From: an uncultured Flavobacteriales bacterium
GTDB lineage: Bacteria > Bacteroidota > Bacteroidia > Flavobacteriales_D > Crocinitomicaceae
Length of the DNA: 64,000 nt
Assembly: GCA_943789205.1 (NCBI GenBank)
Contig: CALSTG010000001.1
Span: 796,435 to 860,434 of the forward strand
Reading direction: 5' to 3'
Shown: piece after piece, positions 42,346 to 51,743 of the stretch
Numbering within the stretch: position 1 is the first letter of the stretch
How the letters are laid out: every line of letters starts with the position of its first letter
The notes under the pieces: model-generated
What the model saw: the letters and a program-made list of their open reading frames with translations, nothing else
Databases searched by the model: none
Told to the model about the DNA's origin: nothing
Made by a program: the position numbers and the translations under genes

Positions 42346-43008
42346 TCAAACTCTCACTGTGGACATTCCACCGTCTACGCCAATTGACTGGCCTGTTAAC
42401 CAATCGTTTTCTAAACAAAATATGGCCGCTTTGGCAATATCTGAAGGGCTTCCGATTTTCTTTAATGGATGACGTTGCGCAGCATTTTCTCTTTTTTGCT
42501 CTGTGCTCAACAAGGCCTCTGCTAATGGTGTATCGGTTAAAGAAGGATTTACAATATTCACGCGAATACTAGGCGCCCACTCTGCTGCTAAACTTCGTGC
42601 TAAAGACTCAAGTCCACCCTTAGCTGCAGCAATGGATGCATGAAAAGGCATTCCTTGTTGACTTGCTACGGTTCCAAAAAGGACAACAGCACCTTTATTT
42701 TTTTTGAGTGTGCGAAAATAAAACTGAAGTACGCGAACTGCTCCTAGTACATTTTTTTCATAATCAGCTAAAAAATCTTCTCTGGATAGTCTATGAAAAG
42801 GTTTGAGATTTATCGATCCTGGACAATAAACCAATCCAGTTAATCCCTCAATTTCAGGGAGGTCATCACTTAAAACGTCTAAAGCGAAGTGATTAGGTCG
42901 ATTGGAAGCACCGCGAGAAATTGTATAGCAATCATGACCATTTAGTTGATCAACCAAGGCTTGTCCAATCCCTTTTGTACCACCGATAATTAATGTTTTC
43001 TTTTCCAT
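42346..43008 (-). CDS. Atypical SDR family protein lacking the catalytic tyrosine
   Basis: This 220-residue Rossmann-fold protein has the SDR nucleotide motif GGTKGIG (residues 9-15) and a C-terminal WLTGQSIGVDGGMST. The usual active-site YxxxK reads I126-A-A-A-K130 (MPFHASIAAAKGG), and the catalytic serine position is T113 (FGTVAS). The fold is kept and the key tyrosine is absent, so dehydrogenase activity in the normal way is doubtful. I recall relatives with the same MPFHAS-type motif, so this may be a subfamily trait and not decay. It precedes the thioredoxin-like gene and diverges from the suf operon. Confidence 0.85.
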   Translation of the reverse strand: MEKKTLIIGGTKGIGQALVDQLNGHDCYTISRGASNRPNHFALDVLSDDLPEIEGLTGLVYCPGSINLKPFHRLSREDFLADYEKNVLGAVRVLQFYFRTLKKNKGAVVLFGTVASQQGMPFHASIAAAKGGLESLARSLAAEWAPSIRVNIVNPSLTDTPLAEALLSTEQKRENAAQRHPLKKIGSPSDIAKAAIFCLENDWLTGQSIGVDGGMSTVRV

Positions 43009-43141: not shown

Positions 43142-43465
43142 ATGATAACTGTTACAGAGTCTGCAAAAAAACAAGCGATTCGCCTCATGGAAGATGATGG
43201 CAAGAGTGGCTTTTTTATTCGTGTGGGGGTCGAAGGTGGTGGATGTTCGGGTTTAATGTATCAACTTACATTTGACAACGAACGCAAAGAAGGAGATTCT
43301 AGCTTTGAAGACAATGGCATTGAAGTCGTTGTCGACAATAAAAGTTACTTGTATTTATTGGGGACTACACTTGATTTTTCGGGAGGTCTAAATGGTAAAG
43401 GATTTGTTTTTAAAAATCCCAATGCCGATAGAACTTGCGGATGTGGTGAGTCATTTTCAGTTTAA
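43142..43465 (+). CDS. Iron-sulfur cluster assembly A-type protein (SufA/IscA/ErpA)
   Basis: This small cytoplasmic carrier or scaffold of 107 residues passes Fe-S clusters to apoproteins. The three ligand cysteines of A-type carriers are present: one in GGCSGLMY and two in the C-terminal CGCGESF. The family motif VEGGGCSG is intact. It is the first gene of the suf operon, 17 bases before sufB, so SufA is the best name. By sequence it could equally be called ErpA-like. Confidence 0.93.
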   Translation: MITVTESAKKQAIRLMEDDGKSGFFIRVGVEGGGCSGLMYQLTFDNERKEGDSSFEDNGIEVVVDNKSYLYLLGTTLDFSGGLNGKGFVFKNPNADRTCGCGESFSV

Positions 43466-43482
43466 TTAAGTTTTAAACAACT

Positions 43483-44931
43483 ATGGGACAGTATACAGAA
43501 AATGAATTGGCTAAAGACCTTGAAAACCAAGACTACAAATTTGGTTTTGTCACTGATGTAGAAACGGAAACAATACCGGTTGGTTTAAATGAGGATATTA
43601 TTCGATTGATTTCATCGAAAAAAGAAGAACCAGCGTGGCTTCTTGACTATAGACTTAATGCCTACAAAACCTGGCTGACAATGTCTGAGCCAGATTGGGC
43701 TCACGTTCGCTACAAAAAGCCAGAATTTCAAAAAATAACATACTACGCAGCTCCAAAGCAAACAAAAAAATATGAGTCATGGGATGATGTAGACCCTGAA
43801 ATGAAGGAGACCATGGCTAAGCTTGGGATTTCTTTGGAAGAACAAAAACGACTTACAGGAGTAGCAGTAGACTTTGTTATGGACTCTGTGTCAGTGGCTA
43901 CCTCTTTTAAATCAAAGTTAAAAGAACTGGGTATTATTTTTTGTTCATTCTCAGAAGCTGTTCAAGAGTATCCAGAGCTTGTGCGAGAACATATGGGCAC
44001 CATTATTCCGCACACTGATAACTTTTATGCCGCTTTGAACGCTGCTGTTTTTACAGATGGTTCCTTTTGTTATATCCCGAAAGGGGTGCGTTGTCCTATG
44101 GAGTTATCTACCTACTTCAGAATTAATGCAGGTGGTACAGGTCAATTCGAAAGAACATTGGTGGTTGCTGATGAAGGTGCATATGTCTCATATCTTGAGG
44201 GATGTACTGCACCTCAAAGAGATGAAAATCAGCTGCATGCCGCCGTTGTTGAGCTAAAGGCGCTTAAAGATGCCGAGATTAAATATTCTACTGTTCAAAA
44301 TTGGTATCCAGGAGACAAAAATGGTGTAGGTGGTGTATTCAATTTTGTAACAAAAAGAGGGCTTTGTGAAACAAATGCAAAAATATCTTGGACACAAGTT
44401 GAGACTGGCTCAGCTGTTACTTGGAAGTACCCATCTTGCATTTTAAAAGGTGACCATTCTGTTGGTGAATTTTATTCTGTGGCAGTTACAAACAATCACC
44501 AGCAAGCGGATACAGGTACAAAAATGATTCATCTTGGCAAGCATACCAAAAGCACTATTATTTCTAAAGGTATTTCAGCGGGAGACTCTCAAAATTCCTA
44601 CCGAGGCTTGGTACAAATCCACAAAAACGCGCACAAATCAAGAAACTTCTCACAATGTGACTCTTTATTAATGACAGACCATTGTGGCGCACATACTTTT
44701 CCATACATCGAATGTAAGAACCCTAGTGCACAAATAGAGCATGAGGCGACTACTTCAAAAATTGGTGAAGACCAGCTTTTTTATTGTAAACAGCGCGGGA
44801 TATCAGAAGAAAAAGCCATTAGCCTGATTGTCAATGGTTACTGTAAAGAGGTATTAAATCAGCTTCCAATGGAATTTGCTGTTGAAGCTCAAAAATTACT
44901 CGCTATCAGCCTTGAAGGCTCTGTAGGCTAA
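43483..44931 (+). CDS. sufB: Fe-S cluster assembly protein SufB
   Basis: SufB is the scaffold subunit of the SufBC2D complex on which Fe-S clusters are built. The 482 residues are the normal length and show family landmarks [60 protein letters not shown] and the C-terminal [12 protein letters not shown] with the conserved cysteine, followed by [20 protein letters not shown]. It is followed by sufC after 11 bases. All elements look intact. Confidence 0.97.
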
Positions 44932-44942
44932 ATCAAAATAAT

Positions 44943-45698
44943 ATGATTGAAATCAAAAATTTACATGCCAATATAGAAGGCAAAGAAATTCTTAAAGGAT
45001 TAACCTTAACTGTTAATGCAGGAGAAGTTCATGCCATAATGGGTCCTAATGGGGCTGGGAAAAGCACACTCGCAAGTATTTTAGCGGGACGGGAAGAATA
45101 TGAAATCACCGAAGGTGAGGTTACCTTTGAAGGAGCGGATCTTTTGGACCTTTCGACAGAAGAAAGAGCACATTTGGGGTTGTTCTTAGCGTTTCAATAT
45201 CCTGTTGAAATTCCAGGTGTCTCAAACGTTAATTTTTTAAGAACAGCCATTAATGAAACAAGAGAAGCAAAGGGTGAAGATCCTATATCGGCAAAAGAAT
45301 TCATGGCAATGGTTCGTGAAAAATCTAAAATTGTTGAACTTGACAGTAAGCTTGCATCAAGATCTGTAAATGAAGGGTTTTCCGGAGGAGAGAAAAAGAG
45401 AAATGAAATCTTTCAAATGGCAATGCTGAATCCTAAGCTGGCAGTTTTAGATGAAACAGACTCCGGTTTAGATATTGATGCATTAAGAATTGTTGCCAAC
45501 GGTGTAAACACGCTGAAATCTGCAGATAATGCATCCATAGTCATAACACATTACCAAAGGCTACTCGACTATATTGTACCAGATTTCGTACATGTACTTC
45601 ATGACGGAAAAATTGTTAAAACAGGAAATAAAGACCTTGCTCTTGAGTTAGAGGAAAAAGGTTATGATTGGATCAAAGAAGAAACCCAAGTAGGATAA
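44943..45698 (+). CDS. sufC: Fe-S cluster assembly ATPase SufC
   Basis: SufC is the ABC-type ATPase of the SufBC2D scaffold complex, a soluble protein not linked to membrane transport. Walker A (GPNGAGKST), Q-loop (LAFQYPVEIPGVS), signature FSGGEKKRNE and Walker B (LAVLDETDSGLDID) are visible in 251 residues, and ITHYQRLLDYI supplies the switch histidine. It sits between sufB (11 bases) and sufD (3 bases). Confidence 0.97.
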   Translation: MIEIKNLHANIEGKEILKGLTLTVNAGEVHAIMGPNGAGKSTLASILAGREEYEITEGEVTFEGADLLDLSTEERAHLGLFLAFQYPVEIPGVSNVNFLRTAINETREAKGEDPISAKEFMAMVREKSKIVELDSKLASRSVNEGFSGGEKKRNEIFQMAMLNPKLAVLDETDSGLDIDALRIVANGVNTLKSADNASIVITHYQRLLDYIVPDFVHVLHDGKIVKTGNKDLALELEEKGYDWIKEETQVG

Positions 45699-45701
45699 AT
45701 A

Positions 45702-46910
45702 ATGGAAGAAGTGCTTACACAAACCAAATTCGACATTTTAAGGACTGGGCTTCGACCAACGGCGCTAAACATCTCCGATGCTTTAAAAGAAAAAGCGAAC
45801 AACGTTTTAAACTATTCAGACTTCCCTACGAGGAAAAATGAAGCTTGGAAATATACCAATGTTAATGGCCTGAATAAGCTGGTATTTGATGGTAAAAACA
45901 TACCGATTTCTGAGCCTTTCACTATAGCTAATCGTTCCAAAAAGATCCATATCACAAATGGCCAAGTTTCGGAAGGTCAATCCGCTATTCCAGGAGTCAA
46001 AACTTCTTGGGATGTCTTACCAGAGTTTTTTACTGACGATCCCTTTGACGCACTCAACGCGTTGTATTGTACTTCCGCTATTCAAGTTGAATTTGACGAT
46101 TCGGAAAATGAAACCATAGAGTTGATATTTGAAAACACAGCCAATTCAGCCATCTTTCCGAGATTGTTTATTCAATGTAATAAAGGGGCAAAAGGAACTG
46201 TTATTTTAAATTTTCAAGGCGCCGAACAAAATGCAAGCTTTATTAATGTTTCTACCTATGTAAATGTGGGAGAAAATGCAAATCTGAGCATTCACAAAAT
46301 TCAAAAAAACGGAGCTGATACGTTTGATTTACAACGAGAATATGTTGATCAGGCGGCGAATAGCACATTTACTATGAACACCTTTCCTTTATCAGGAAGA
46401 TTAACTCGAAATGATTTAAAGATCAATGTAAATGGTAACAATTGTGAGACATTCATGAATGGGGCTTATACGCTAAAAGGAAAGTCTCATTGTGATAACC
46501 ATACCACAGTTGACCATAAAGTTGCACATTGCTATTCTAAGGAGCTTTACAAAGGAGTTATTGATGATCGAGCGACCAATGTTTTCAACGGCAAAGTATT
46601 TGTGCGTAAAGACGCACAAAAAATCAATGCATTTCAGTCAAATGCAAATATTTTATTAAGTGATACAGGGACTGTAAACTCTAAGCCAGAGCTAGAAATA
46701 TACGCAGACGATGTGAAGTGTTCTCATGGATCTACCACAGGTCAGCTAGATGATGAAGCTGTTTTCTATCTACGTTCTAGGGGCCTTTCTGAAAAAGCTG
46801 CCAAAGAACTGCTGGTTAAAGCATTCTTAGGAGAGGTTCTTGAAGAAGTTGAAAATGAAGAAGTCAAGTCTTATGTTGAAGCTCAAATCGAAAAACATTT
46901 TTCAGCTTAA
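45702..46910 (+). CDS. sufD: Fe-S cluster assembly protein SufD
   Basis: SufD pairs with SufB in the scaffold complex. The 402-residue protein has the N-terminal helical domain with FPTRKNEAWKYTNVNGL, a typical SufD entry motif. The beta-helix core follows and ends in KCSHGSTTGQLDDEAVFYLRSRGLS, characteristic of SufD. It is the last suf gene in the window. No sufS or sufE follows, as would be common in Bacteroidota, because a convergent photolyase-family gene abuts it with no intervening base. The cysteine desulfurase must be encoded elsewhere. Confidence 0.96.
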   Translation: MEEVLTQTKFDILRTGLRPTALNISDALKEKANNVLNYSDFPTRKNEAWKYTNVNGLNKLVFDGKNIPISEPFTIANRSKKIHITNGQVSEGQSAIPGVKTSWDVLPEFFTDDPFDALNALYCTSAIQVEFDDSENETIELIFENTANSAIFPRLFIQCNKGAKGTVILNFQGAEQNASFINVSTYVNVGENANLSIHKIQKNGADTFDLQREYVDQAANSTFTMNTFPLSGRLTRNDLKINVNGNNCETFMNGAYTLKGKSHCDNHTTVDHKVAHCYSKELYKGVIDDRATNVFNGKVFVRKDAQKINAFQSNANILLSDTGTVNSKPELEIYADDVKCSHGSTTGQLDDEAVFYLRSRGLSEKAAKELLVKAFLGEVLEEVENEEVKSYVEAQIEKHFSA

Positions 46911-48401
46911 TTATTTCCCTTCTAAGTGAGCTAAAAAATCTGCTGCATTTTTTAAATGACTTGCTTTTTTCTCTTGTGACATTCGATTAAAAGAATGAAC
47001 CATCATTGACATCCTGGGGTTTTTGAGGAAAAAATCTTGATTCACAGAAATAAAGCGCCAAAACAAACCATCCCATATTTCAGTCCACGGCCCTTTACCG
47101 TAATTACTCATTTTCTTGATATAGTTAGAACCACCTATGTAGGGCTTGGTCGCAAAAGTTCCCCCGTCGGCAAATTGACTCATCCCATAAACATTAGGCA
47201 CCATGACCCAGTCATATGCATCGATAAACAATTCCATGAACCAACGGTAGACCTCATCTGGATGAAATTCACAAAGCAACATAAAGTTTCCAAGTACCAT
47301 AAGCCGCTCAATATGGTGACAATAACCAGTAGCTAATACTTTTTTTATCGTGTCGTCTACTGGCTCAATACCTGTTGTACCATCGTAAAAACTTTTTGGT
47401 ATTTTTCGTTCAAAACCCCAAAAATTTTGGGTTCGGGAAAAGCTTCCTTTACACATGTACATCCCACGGATAAACTCTCTCCATCCCATAATTTGACGGA
47501 CAAAACCCTCCAGGGAATTTAATGGTATCTCATTCTTTTTTGCAAACAGAACACTTTGATTGATCACCTCTCGCGGGGAAATCAAACCACAATTCATAAG
47601 TGGTGAAAGCAAACTATGATTTAAAAATATCTCTTCTTTTACAATGGCGTCCTCATAAATCCCAAACTCCTCAAAACGCTCCTTTAAAAACCGGACTAAC
47701 CATTCGTTTGTTTCCTCAAAAGTAATTGGATAAATACGTTTGGCTTCAAGTTCACCGGGATAGTCTTTAAAGTGAGTTCCAACATATTGTATGGCCTCCT
47801 CCCAGTAGGGACTTGATTTAGGAAATTGAATTACCGGAGGCACCTGTCCTTTAGGGTATTTTTTTCTATTGTCAACATCATAGGTCCACTTCCCTCCTCT
47901 TGGACTTCCGTCTTTTTCCATTAAAACATTATGTTTTACGCGTTGCTGCTTGTAAAATGTGGTTTGAAAAAAAGACTTTTTATCCGCTCTAAAGAAGGGA
48001 CTCAAATCCTCATTTGAATTTATAAAGTAAGGTGTGTCAAGCATATTTACATGCATACGATCTGAAAAAGAATTGATTCTCTTGGACAACCAATTGTCAA
48101 CCGGATCATAAAAGTTTATCTGAGTAACTCCTGACGCTATAATCTCCTCTAAAAAAACCCTGATATCACTTTTCTCATTTGTTGCAGCAATGTAGACTAC
48201 AGATGTGTTTTGTAGCATCAAAAAATCAGTGTAAGCTTTCATTGAAGCCCTATGGAATGCAATCTTTTGTTTGTGAAACTTGTAGTGCTTAAAAAACAAA
48301 TGCTCTTCAATAATATACGTTTCACAATCATTATCAAGTAAAGCGTTTTTCTCAAAAAGCTGGTGCGGGAAGATAAGGTTAACGGCTTTTCTTTTTTCCA
48401 T
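46911..48401 (-). CDS. FeS-BCP/PhrB-type cryptochrome-photolyase without Fe-S cysteines
   Basis: This 496-residue protein belongs to the deoxyribodipyrimidine photolyase-related group (PF04244, PhrB-like (6-4) photolyases). I start it at the ATG at 48401, giving [16 protein letters not shown], the family N-terminus. The antenna domain ([27 protein letters not shown]) and FAD domain ([48 protein letters not shown]) are well kept. At the positions of PhrB cysteines C350, C438 and C441, however, it has P347, G435 and P438, and the CPFN segment reads EIWD. So it should hold no [4Fe-4S] cluster. It overlaps the upstream cryptochrome gene by 23 bases and abuts the sufD stop. Confidence 0.88.
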
Positions 48402-49836
48402 TATTTCTAGTATGTAATTCGACAATTCGTTTACTGTCGGCTCTGACAGCTTTGTGCTTTCGGTGTCCCCAGATTTTTGCTCTTGCAATTTTCGCAACTG
48501 CAGTTAGATCTACAATCGGTTCGGGATAGTCATTGCCTATATTATGTAGCTCTTTTTCCATGGCTGTCATTTTCCAAGGTTCATGAATAAATTCAATGGG
48601 AATATTTTTTAATTCGGGAACCCATTCACGTATGAATACACCATTTGGATCGTGCTCTTGAGATTGCTTGATGGGGTTGTACATCCGAATGGTATTTATT
48701 CCAGTCGTTCCTGCCTGCATCTGAAATTGTGGAAAATGAATCCCTGGTTCGTAGTCCAAGAATTGCTGTGCAATAAAGTACACCCCTTTTTTCCAATTGC
48801 AATCCAAGTGAAAACACAATACAGAGACGAGCATGGCACGCATTCTAAAATTGATCCAACCCGTTGCAATCAAACAACGCATACAAGCGTCAACCAAAGG
48901 AAAACCAGTTTGCCCTTTTTTCCAGGCCTCAAGAAATATAGGATTGCTTTCATATTCCAAGGTTTCATATCCCCGGTTTACGCAATGCGTTTCATAGGTG
49001 CACTCTACTTCAAATTTTTGGATAAAATGGCAGCGCCATTTTAATCGCGTAAGTTGATTGTTAAAACTGCGCTTATTCGCATCATAGTTTGGGTGGTTTC
49101 GAACAAATTGAACGGCTTGACGCACCGATAAATTACCCCAAGCCAAGTAAGGCGATATTCTTCCACATGATTTTCGACTCTCTTTAGGTTTTGAAATATG
49201 ACGGCTGTAGTTCGAACCACGTCCTTCACAAAAGGAACTTATATAACGCATGGCATAACTTTCTCCAGCCCTCTGAAACGATTCAGGGTAATTTTGCAGT
49301 GACTTTAGAAGTTTTTCTGGTAAGTCAAAGGGAAAGCTTTTTTCAATAGCTTCATTCTGCGAGTATACATTCAATATCAGCGGAGAATTCACCGCGGCAT
49401 ACCAATTTTTGTCCCAATTGACTCTATTTTTAATACCTCGAATAATTCCATCACGTTGAAATTCTGTCCATTTAATGCCTTTTCTTTTAAATAAGGAAGA
49501 AACATTTTTGTCGCGTTCCCAAGTCACTTTTACACCACTCTCCTGATAGGAATATACATTTTGGATGTCAAATTTTTCTATTAAGAAATTAAAAACCTCT
49601 ATCGCCTCTCCATGTAGAAGATGAACCTTTCTGTTAAAGGCCTTCAAGACCCTATTCATCTCCAAAATAGAATGATATACAAACTGTAAATGTCGTAACG
49701 AGCAATCCTGATATGCCATGGCTGATGGCTCCATAATATAAATAGGCAGATAATTGCATTTTAAATCATGTTCTGCCTCAAAAAAAGGAAGGTGATCCTG
49801 CAAGCGCAGGTCTCTCTTTAGCCAAACAATGTTCAT
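48379..49836 (-). CDS. Cryptochrome/photolyase family protein, DYEPGIH subtype
   Basis: This 485-residue flavoprotein has a classical N-terminal antenna domain ([15 protein letters not shown]) and an FAD-binding domain ([65 protein letters not shown]). The canonical DGDLASNNGGWQW around the flavin is replaced by [20 protein letters not shown], a version I know from a distinct group of bacterial cryptochrome-like proteins. Whether it repairs DNA or senses light cannot be told. The ATG at 49836 matches the family start; GTG at 49848 would give a 4-base overlap with the upstream gene. It is the middle gene of a three-gene cluster. Confidence 0.9.
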
Positions 49837-49844
49837 TACTTCTT

Positions 49845-50963
49845 TCACTTAACAAGCTCCTTTTTTGCTTTGTTCCAAAACTTAAAGAACCCGGGAAAAT
49901 AACCTTTAACGGAAGTCATCCAGTCTCGATCCTCTTGAACACCATGGTAATGGGTGTTTAGCGGGTGTTCTTTGAATACAATTTCTGAATCTTTTAATTG
50001 TGCTTGAAGTGAGGTAAAGGACCCAACAAAAATCTTAATATCCTTGATATTAGCAGAAAGTCCAACTGCAAAGTCCATACACTTTTGACTGATTGGATAA
50101 CGCTCAAAAACAGCAGGCTCAATTAATAAAACACGTTGTACATCTTCTCCTTCATACCATAATGGGTCAAGATTATAATAATTGTAAACCAAAGTTTTCT
50201 TCTCTTCTAGGTCTAAACGTGAAATGGACTCAGGGTAATTGATTTCGGTTATACTATTTTTACTTTGCAGTAACTCAGCAGGGACTTCTAGATTGTTAAA
50301 TGCCTCATAAGGAACATCCAAAAAAGTATTGCGCTGAGCACTGTTGAAGTACTTATTGATGTTCTCTTGATTCGCCACATATTTTCGATTGGAAAACGTA
50401 CCGGCAACCCATTGCCAGCTCAGATGATTGCTTGCCAAATCACCATCAAGAAGGTGTGCATACATCCACATGGCTGGTGCACTCCAGTGGTACTTCCCGA
50501 TATTACAACATATTGCTGAAATATACATACGCATATGGTTGTGCAAATAACCCGTTTTATAAAACCTTTTTATGGCTTCGTCAATGGCTTCAATCCCAGT
50601 ATTTGCCTCAACAATTGCAGCGGGTAGACCTGAATGTAAAACCGCTTTTTGCTCAAAATTAAGGTCTGACTCAATACGACTTTGCTTTTCCACCCATACC
50701 TGCTGCCAATAATCCCTCCACGCCAATTCTTGAACAAGTTTTTCAGTTGGCCTCCACTCTAAATCCAAGGACTTGATATGCTCGAAAATAGACTTTGTAG
50801 AAATAACACCACGAGAGATATATGGCCCTAATAAAGTCAATGCACCATTCATATAATTACGTGTCGCTGCATATTCAATTGGATCAATGGCCTCAATTCG
50901 ATCTTGAATAGCATTCCAATCAGTAGGAAAATTATAGATATAATCAGTTGTTGGCGTTTGCAT
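49845..50963 (-). CDS. Short photolyase-like protein without N-terminal antenna domain
   Basis: This 372-residue protein starts at the ATG at 50963, because the longer frame begins with TTG. It begins directly in the FAD-binding helical domain: [17 protein letters not shown] (40-56), [15 protein letters not shown] (77-90), [15 protein letters not shown] (137-151), [16 protein letters not shown] (173-188) and NQENINKYF. The ~130-residue alpha/beta antenna domain of ordinary photolyases is missing. A C-terminal extension (275-345, [17 protein letters not shown]) resembles part of the PhrB-type N-terminal domain, as if moved to the other end. It is the first gene of the cluster. Short photolyases are reported to repair or bind DNA; the role here is open. 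Confidence 0.85.
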
Positions 50964-51008: not shown

Positions 51009-51731
51009 TTATTTTTTTGAAGTACCCAATATATAATGAATCCCCATATTCAAACCAATACTATATAATCTTTCATGAACTGGCGCATCCTTTATTGGCA
51101 TTAAAGAATATTGAAAGCTTGGCTCGAATTTCATATAAAAAGCATCCCTAAGCTTGTATTGAATACCAATACTTAATTTAAAGAGAGGATGAAATCGATA
51201 AAAATCATGAGGGTTGTCAAAATTCACAGCTGTATCAGACATTACAGTGCCATCCGACCACTGAATGATATATGAGCCTCGATCATCTAATAAAACACTT
51301 AGGATAGCTCCAACCGCAGCCGTAAGCTCCCATTTGTCTTTAAAATCATAAGTATAACCCATTGTAAGGGGAACTCCAATGTATCCATAGCTGTTTTGAA
51401 AAGATCCTATTCCATCGATCTCTGGACCTTGAAATAAAATATTGCTTCTTCTATTGCCAAACCTAGTATACTGAATCCCCGTGAAAATCGTTAATCCTTT
51501 GTCAAACTGATAAGTATAAGTCCCTCCAACATTAAAGCCAAATTTGGCCTGCTCGTACTCATTTCTAGTATCAATGAGCCATTGAAAGTCTGTATCATGC
51601 GTTTTTAGCGTTCTAAAAGTGAAATTAGAAGAGTAATTCAATCCTATATCAGATTTGTCTTGTGCCTTCAATGATAAGACCGAAGTAATCAGAAAAAGAA
51701 GAAGTAAATAATTTTGTGTTTTAACCGTCAT
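51009..51731 (-). CDS. Outer-membrane beta-barrel protein, PorT-like
   Basis: This 240-residue exported protein has a signal peptide cut near LKAQ. The start is the ATG at 51731; one codon upstream is a TTG. The mature part alternates strands typical of an eight-stranded barrel (GFNVGGTYTYQFDKGLTIFTGIQYTRFG, GYIGVPLTMGYTYDF, WELTAAVGAIL, FKLSIGIQYKL), ending with GLNMGIHYILG. It fits the generic outer-membrane beta-barrel/PorT-like family. The ligand and role are unknown. It lies 12 bases after the propeller lipoprotein gene on the same strand, so they probably form a pair. Confidence 0.78.
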   Translation of the reverse strand: MTVKTQNYLLLLFLITSVLSLKAQDKSDIGLNYSSNFTFRTLKTHDTDFQWLIDTRNEYEQAKFGFNVGGTYTYQFDKGLTIFTGIQYTRFGNRRSNILFQGPEIDGIGSFQNSYGYIGVPLTMGYTYDFKDKWELTAAVGAILSVLLDDRGSYIIQWSDGTVMSDTAVNFDNPHDFYRFHPLFKLSIGIQYKLRDAFYMKFEPSFQYSLMPIKDAPVHERLYSIGLNMGIHYILGTSKK

Positions 51732-51743
51732 CAATGCATAAAT

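Follow-up and report, generated by a model that had tools for sequence, protein, structure and literature searches.

A likely operon of three photolyase-family genes in a Flavobacteriales genome, one of them with an apparently unfamiliar pocket

The photolyases, a textbook case of DNA repair, have few known substrates. What, then, are three different members of the family doing end to end in one bacterium? The question is raised by genes A, B, and C (Table 1), which lie on the minus strand of a 64,000-nt stretch (hereafter the window) of contig CALSTG010000001.1, from an uncultured bacterium of the Flavobacteriales (Crocinitomicaceae). A sequence-only reading of this DNA had taken them for one overlapping operon drawn from three separate branches of the superfamily, possibly with a joint job. 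A joint role in the repair of different photoproducts, one of the options it named, does seem likely. In the form put forward here, to which we give about even confidence, A-B-C is a likely operon that would co-produce three photolyase-family flavoproteins: A for cyclobutane pyrimidine dimers (CPDs) in single-stranded DNA, C for (6-4) photoproducts, and B for a third photoproduct or DNA context.

Layout and recurrence of the three genes

All three open reading frames (ORFs) are intact where the sequence-only reading had placed them, end to end on one strand and overlapping at both junctions. The ORF listed for C opens at a TTG (48497); the ATG at 48401 was preferred, as it gives the usual length of the homologues (mostly 491-503 aa). 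Pfam profiles find PF03441 in all three proteins, PF00875 only in B, and PF04244 only in C. Pairwise BLASTP identities are 19-32% over short stretches (A/C 22% over 212 aa; A/B 19% over 159 aa; B/C 32% over 47 aa); the genes are therefore not recent tandem copies, and tandem duplication is ruled out as their origin. The earlier assignment to three separate branches is supported. Against four close relatives (L035-L038), dN/dS is 0.13-0.15 for A and 0.045-0.08 for B; for C it is 0.045-0.09 against three relatives, the fourth being saturated at synonymous sites. The lowest values are approximate, the underlying dS exceeding 1.5. All three are real genes under purifying selection. Shared strand, overlapping genes, and an order kept in relatives (see below) together make an operon likely, and from this layout co-transcription and translational coupling would be expected. 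Promoter-like sites in the region number 18, close to the number in shuffled sequences (mean 13.9, sd 3.4).

An A-family gene (E <1e-25) is present in 31 of 59 relatives of the window's genome. Among 34 stretches from these 31 relatives, 13 carry A, B, and C on the same strand in the window's order, and 11 have an SDR gene, A, and B consecutively; several of the other fetched stretches end at contig edges. At E limits of 1e-40 for A, 1e-80 for B, and 1e-60 for C, a wider draw of 296 genomes from the phylum, the window's own included, has the three genes in 17, 37, and 100 genomes respectively, the last count taking in Fe-S-type relatives. With the own genome excluded, a C-family gene accompanies A in 16 of 16 genomes, against 99 of 295 overall (Fisher p 1e-8, uncorrected for relatedness). 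Random scattering of the families, which the sequence-only reading had itself named as the outcome that would overturn it, was looked for and did not do so: 10 of the 16 A-bearing genomes have C on the same strand within 5 kb of A, where random placement would give 0.05. B and C are within 5 kb in 8 of the 35 phylum-sample genomes that have both.

A third collection consists of 80 named loci picked by similarity to A; neighbors were counted within 5 kb and on the same strand as A, uncorrected for contig ends, and two of the collections overlap. C is present in 54 of these loci, B in 31, both in 22, and neither in 17; the operon-like arrangement first noticed in the window recurs in other genomes. 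The A and B ORFs overlap in 30 of the 31 loci with B (taking B from its first possible start codon). Among the cultured hosts of A are Algoriphagus, Arenibacter, Gillisia mitskevichiae, Cellulophaga baltica, and Tenacibaculum sp. SG-28, the last alone of these having the full triple, an arrangement encountered mostly in metagenome-assembled genomes. A-B pairs are also found on a Persicobacter plasmid and in metagenome-assembled genomes labeled Opitutales, Opitutaceae, Rhodobacteraceae, and Gammaproteobacteria (bin labels as given). The clustering of A, B, and C is not accidental.

Non-random clustering need not mean a shared function. The three could be independent repair genes, functionally uncoupled and kept together by inheritance or co-transfer, an explanation we consider unlikely. 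A single genus supplies five of the ten genomes in which A and C are neighbors; in one genome (G261) A, B, and C are spread over three contigs, and in another (G207) 66 kb of one contig separate A from B, with C on a second contig. Over 20 loci, the A, B, and C distances correlate at 0.91-0.96, as vertical inheritance alone would produce; with no control gene in the comparison, this correlation is not used as evidence of coupling. A mere gene-order island fits poorly, however, with A-C, B-C, and A-B pairs that recur without the third gene adjoining, in varied orders and with the same companions, or with the excess of A-C neighbors over random placement.

Table 1. Features of the window, with positions counted from its first nucleotide.
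Feature	Position	Strand	Description
Gene A	50963-49845	-	372 aa, ATG start; NewPHL/SPL-type photolyase, FAD domain first
Gene B	49848-48379	-	489 aa, GTG start; full-length photolyase-fold protein, uncharacterised branch
Gene C	48401-46911	-	496 aa, ATG start; prokaryotic (6-4) photolyase family (PF04244), without Fe-S site
A/B junction	49845..49848	-	4-nt overlap GTGA: TGA stop of A and GTG start of B (read in the sequence)
B/C overlap	48379..48401	-	23 nt; ATG of C inside B
Alpha/beta (Z-like) domain of A	49848..50195	-	C-terminal, residues 257-372 (AlphaFold2)
B residues 365-378	48715..48756	-	FAD-N5 region (pairwise HMMER against 1dnp and 2e0i; MAFFT)
C residues 418-447	47061..47150	-	Fe-S loop region of PhrB; cysteine-free, loop deleted (alignments)
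SDR gene	42346-43008	-	possible former or accessory cassette member; parted from C by suf operon
suf operon	43142-46910	+	abuts stop of C, opposite direction; suf name given by eye
241-aa ORF	51009-51734	-	ends 45 nt upstream of A

The three proteins

Protein A had been called a short photolyase. Short it is, but not a truncation, nor a pseudogene: 61 homologues align over the same layout, dN/dS is low, and the C-terminus forms an alpha/beta domain, as reported for the NewPHL/SPL photolyases. PF03441 matches at residues 77-196, and there is no N-terminal antenna domain (neither PF00875 nor PF04244). The domain order is inverted, with the FAD fold (1-233) first and a confidently modeled alpha/beta domain (257-372) last; pLDDT per ten-residue block of the latter is 92-98, except for 87 at 351-360 and 74 at 371-372, with strands at 257-261, 276-281, 310-313, 328-331, and 342-344 and helices between them. 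Residues 257-372 match no Pfam family above cut-off, and Foldseek and VIA-align, their lists filled by the well-covered FAD domain, matched them to no solved structure. At profile level they resemble weakly a Deinococcus plasmid protein with a sub-cut-off PF00875 (13% probability, E 0.002), which gives only a hint of a displaced antenna domain. On that plasmid, of Deinococcus sp. QL22 (L150 2369-3660), an FAD-domain gene overlaps by 4 nt a separate gene with the sub-cut-off PF00875; the pair looks like a split, reversed photolyase, like phr4/phr5 of marine Synechococcus.

The pocket residues of A (R35, E79, W82, N142, M146, N179, W183, and W185) are identical in all 62 aligned sequences, which include the window's and are hand-picked near relatives (at least 55% identity). 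The CPD-binding residues are kept, with His at the R342 position. No set of four conserved cysteines is present; none stands in an invariant column of the 62-sequence alignment, and C153 is nearly invariant. A sits in a long-stemmed branch of Bacteroidota sequences and shares 24-26% identity with two FAD-first proteins of alphaproteobacteria; a split with support of 100/97 joins it to FAD-first proteins of Ruegeria and Peteryoungia, used as stand-ins for the characterised members of D. shibae and M. mesophilicum. A is predicted to mend CPDs in single-stranded DNA.

Protein C had been called PhrB-like. The family is right, the best solved relatives being (6-4) photolyases of the PhrB family (7ykn, E 3e-74); the PhrB Fe-S cysteines are missing. 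At what we take to be the positions of these residues, C has a 10-residue deletion and no cysteine (Cys438, Cys441, and Cys454), and C350 aligns with Pro347. The three C-terminal cysteines are absent from all 68 C homologues (>400 aa, >200 bits; the count takes in the window and leaves contigs shared by two collections unmerged; the C350 position was left out of this count), and C does not carry the four-cysteine 4Fe-4S signature of the FeS-BCP proteins. His363, Tyr421, Tyr427, and Trp387, the counterparts of PhrB H366, Y424, Y430, and W390 (PMC4619345, in the parts compared), are kept in 68 of 68. The FAD-N5 site is Met400 (Glu403 in PhrB). According to the parts of PMC9178010 compared, 37 of the 50 proteins in subgroups Chl, HC, Ac, and M have Met at this site, and cysteine loss marks subgroup M, whose Fe-S-less member PromaPL is counted among 6-4 enzymes. 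C is likely to mend (6-4) photoproducts, although its lesion is contested, as set out below.

Protein B had been called a cryptochrome, which it may be, but it is the least familiar of the three. At the positions of E. coli R226, E274, N341, M345, N378, W382, and W384 it has Ile, Arg, Phe, Ala, His, Phe, and Met; apart from the two substrate positions tabulated in PMC7560933, the E. coli residues are those that we take to be the lesion contacts and electron carriers. H371 stands at the FAD-N5 (N378) position, F375 at that of W382, and M377 at that of W384. In an alignment of 55 sequences (window included, hand-picked from 120 listed, all near relatives of at least 55% identity), H371 is found in 55 of 55 and F375 and M377 in 54, and nine changed or flanking positions are identical throughout. 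In a separate MAFFT alignment and tree that included A, B, and the Vibrio and Tritonibacter homologues, with C left out, the Vibrio homologue of B shares all seven pocket residues and the Tritonibacter one five (Met for Ile218, Val for Phe375). MAFFT and pairwise HMMER disagree on the equivalent of W306; HMMER (W309) was followed, and nothing is based on W309.

Comparison with the known classes leaves B unplaced. With all seven compared residues replaced, the class I CPD pocket is absent. Profile scores say little: B falls below the NCBIfam cut-offs for class I (NF007955, 177.6 of 506 bits), 8-HDF, DASH, and plant types, and the genome's own canonical, full-pocket photolyase is likewise below all four (318.2 bits for NF007955), so that classification rests on residues. 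TIGR02765 gives B 149.2 of 317 bits, against 545 for a DASH protein of Haladaptatus. In Table 1 of PMC7560933, in the parts compared, the two substrate positions are held by Gln/Tyr (Cry-DASH), His/Trp ((6-4) photolyases and animal cryptochromes), or Val/Tyr (plant cryptochromes), and B has Ala/Met, matching neither Cry-DASH, nor the eukaryotic (6-4) photolyases and animal cryptochromes, nor the plant cryptochromes. D382, A385, and N386 (PCC 6301 numbering), conserved in all FAD-bearing members of picocyanobacterial Phr1-Phr8 as stated in the source portions compared, correspond by spacing to Glu367, Ile370, and His371. B may belong to the "DASH-like" group of PMC9178010, as far as that description was compared. 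Judged by its residues, then, the pocket of B appears to match no characterised photolyase class compared, and to be unlike those of both CPD and (6-4) enzymes. Plasmids of Nostoc sp. HK-01 (L162) and Halalkalicoccus jeotgali (L163) carry photolyase-family proteins with a B-like Arg/Phe/Ala/Met set, but with Asp or Asn at N5.

B could either repair a third lesion or serve as a sensor. The latter, a bacterial cryptochrome acting as a blue-light sensor that regulates or reports while A and C alone repair DNA, is a serious possibility, though clearly short of even. It would account for the Arg, Phe, Ala, and Met in place of E274, N341, M345, and W384, for the Phe in place of the proximal Trp, and for substrate positions that fit no tabulated class; the frequent companion DUF2805/TIGR03643 has a sub-cut-off HTH_7 match, making a regulator by the cluster possible, and an actinobacterial relative of the A-like family has been proposed as a light sensor (PMC9239080, in the parts compared). 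Against a sensor, the new pocket is conserved like a catalytic site (nine positions in 55 of 55, with the low dN/dS given above), though among near relatives only; no C-terminal extension follows the fold, the model being ordered to about residue 480 of 489; and the linkage to flavin reductase suggests a need for FADH-.

For the reading of A-B-C as a repair operon, each protein would bind FAD and work from FADH- under blue or UV-A light, with B predicted to act on its third photoproduct or DNA context through its own conserved pocket. A stand-alone photolyase at G000:C1:465 kb, in which all class I CPD-contact residues compared are present, would cover CPDs in double-stranded DNA. The operon would therefore widen the range of repairable damage, and with this class I-type enzyme present, redundancy on double-stranded CPDs is unlikely to be its purpose. 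A bolder version, which we hold only tentatively and think somewhat doubtful, makes B the founder of a new photolyase class: a remodeled class I lesion pocket centered on an invariant His at FAD N5 (Arg/Phe/Ala/Met for Glu274/Asn341/Met345/Trp384), using chemically reduced FAD to reverse a non-CPD, non-(6-4) photoproduct (e.g., Dewar isomers or RNA lesions), the operon then being a three-enzyme light-repair kit for the whole range of pyrimidine photodamage.

Several points weigh against a three-enzyme repair operon. Over the phylum sample, A and B co-occur no more than chance would have it (in 4 genomes, with A in 16 and B in 36 of 295; Fisher p = 0.12), and in two of these four genomes they are far apart. 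Besides the window, the full triple within 5 kb is found in the phylum sample only in G203, where C comes first and then B, followed 1.4 kb on by A. B has apparently lost the CPD-holding residues, as a cryptochrome could too. C lacks Trp342, having Tyr339 instead, and Fe-S-less Phr2 proteins have been argued to be likely CPD, not (6-4), photolyases (PMC9426592); the lesion of C is contested because this disagrees with the placing of PromaPL among 6-4 enzymes in PMC9178010, each source being taken in the parts compared.

Companion genes

Around A, the 80 named loci have a TIGR03643/DUF2805 gene in 39 cases and a flavin reductase in 27; other neighbor families within 4.5 kb are a 55-aa family (19 loci), a 134-aa family (14), and short ORFs that we take to be DUF2256-like (11), the PF10013 score being that of the Tritonibacter protein alone. 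For TIGR03643/DUF2805 and Flavin_Reduct the scored representative was a single cassette protein per family, from L039, with the V. fortis reductase in addition; BLAST to cassette proteins supplied the labels at the remaining loci. The helix-turn-helix match of DUF2805 is below cut-off (HTH_7, E 0.004, 17.7 of 23.8 bits). Similar company is kept by the B homologues of Vibrio fortis, with a flavin reductase adjoining and TIGR03643 3 kb off on the other strand, and of Tritonibacter, with a DUF2256 companion.

The flavin reductase near A would supply reduced flavin, which would suit B best, because at the proximal Trp position of the photoreduction chain B has Phe375 instead. A further idea is that the three proteins assemble into a complex, or draw on a common antenna or electron donor. 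The translational overlaps and the lack of a canonical N-terminal antenna domain in A would fit such an arrangement, but a flavin reductase gene often lies between the genes, and A, B, or C is often without one of the others; we think it very improbable.

In the window's genome the cassette companions are dispersed. The DUF2805/TIGR03643 gene is at G000:C1:176358-176570 (L156), with a DUF2256-like ORF beside it on the opposite strand. No flavin reductase adjoins the operon, and the one in the genome (L157) is only a distant relative, at 24-28% identity to the cassette reductase, and was not counted as it. The SDR gene of Table 1 may be a detached cassette member: elsewhere an SDR gene is directly upstream of A (L055-L066), between C and A (L043), or otherwise in the stretch around A (L106, L114, L122, L123, L141, and L146). 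The genome also has a microbial rhodopsin gene (G000:C1:1366002-1366661, L155; PF01036, 132.8 bits), which places it among the rhodopsin-bearing genomes for which an enrichment of photolyase clusters has been reported.

This recurrent cassette, with a single-stranded-CPD-type enzyme, an Fe-S-free (6-4)-family enzyme, the conserved B, a flavin reductase, and small genes, is a direct test bed for light repair in sunlit bacteria, and B represents a protein family whose chemistry the known members do not let one guess.

Comparison with known systems

The sequence-only reading knew of no characterised system of this composition. A literature search, with most subscription papers outside its reach, recognised no description of a three-photolyase operon of this kind or of B, and a search of papers by companion-gene names found nothing; related clusters are in print, however.

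For A, the nearest models are the NewPHL and SPL photolyases, reportedly the subject of work by Emmerich in 2020 and Xu in 2021 and known to us through citations. A shares their FAD-first order, short terminal alpha/beta domain, and CPD pocket; it differs in its operon with two other photolyases and in its long-stemmed Bacteroidota branch. It also lacks Fe-S cysteines, as stated for Phr7 of Prochlorococcus (PMC9426592), whereas SPL is credited with an Fe-S cluster (PMC9649867); on these partial accounts A is therefore nearer to NewPHL/Phr7 than to SPL. C is of the same overall family as the FeS-BCP proteins (PhrB of Agrobacterium, CryB of Rhodobacter, and that of V. cholerae), without their Fe-S site. 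The traits of the Fe-S-less subgroup M and PromaPL, in the parts of PMC9178010 compared, are all found in C (PF04244 plus FAD domain, no Fe-S cysteines, Met near N5, catalytic His), a likeness of residues and domains, not of tree placement; unlike that subgroup's, the C sequences are from Bacteroidota.

As to clusters, photolyase and photolyase-related genes lie within 20 kb of each other in at least 10 rhodopsin-bearing Flavobacteriia genomes (PMC5932025). The window's genome likewise bears a rhodopsin gene, but in the parts of that paper compared the genes are not classed and no operon is described. In Great Lakes Nitrospira an FeS-BCP gene stands beside one for an FAD-domain protein with an unrecognised C-terminus (PMC9239080), by description a C-like plus A-like pair; in the portion compared no B is reported and the C-like gene is described as one of the Fe-S type. 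On a Haladaptatus plasmid (L158 733-3687), genes for a DASH cryptochrome and for a PhrB-like protein that has the Fe-S cysteines converge and overlap by 4 nt, making another photolyase pair. Overlapping photolyase genes also form the operon of Synechococcus sp. PCC 7335 (PMC9649867, in the parts compared), for which co-transcription and UV-B induction were shown; it has two genes, for PHR and a PhrSph98-like protein. Clustered photolyase genes are thus already known, and B is the part worth pursuing.

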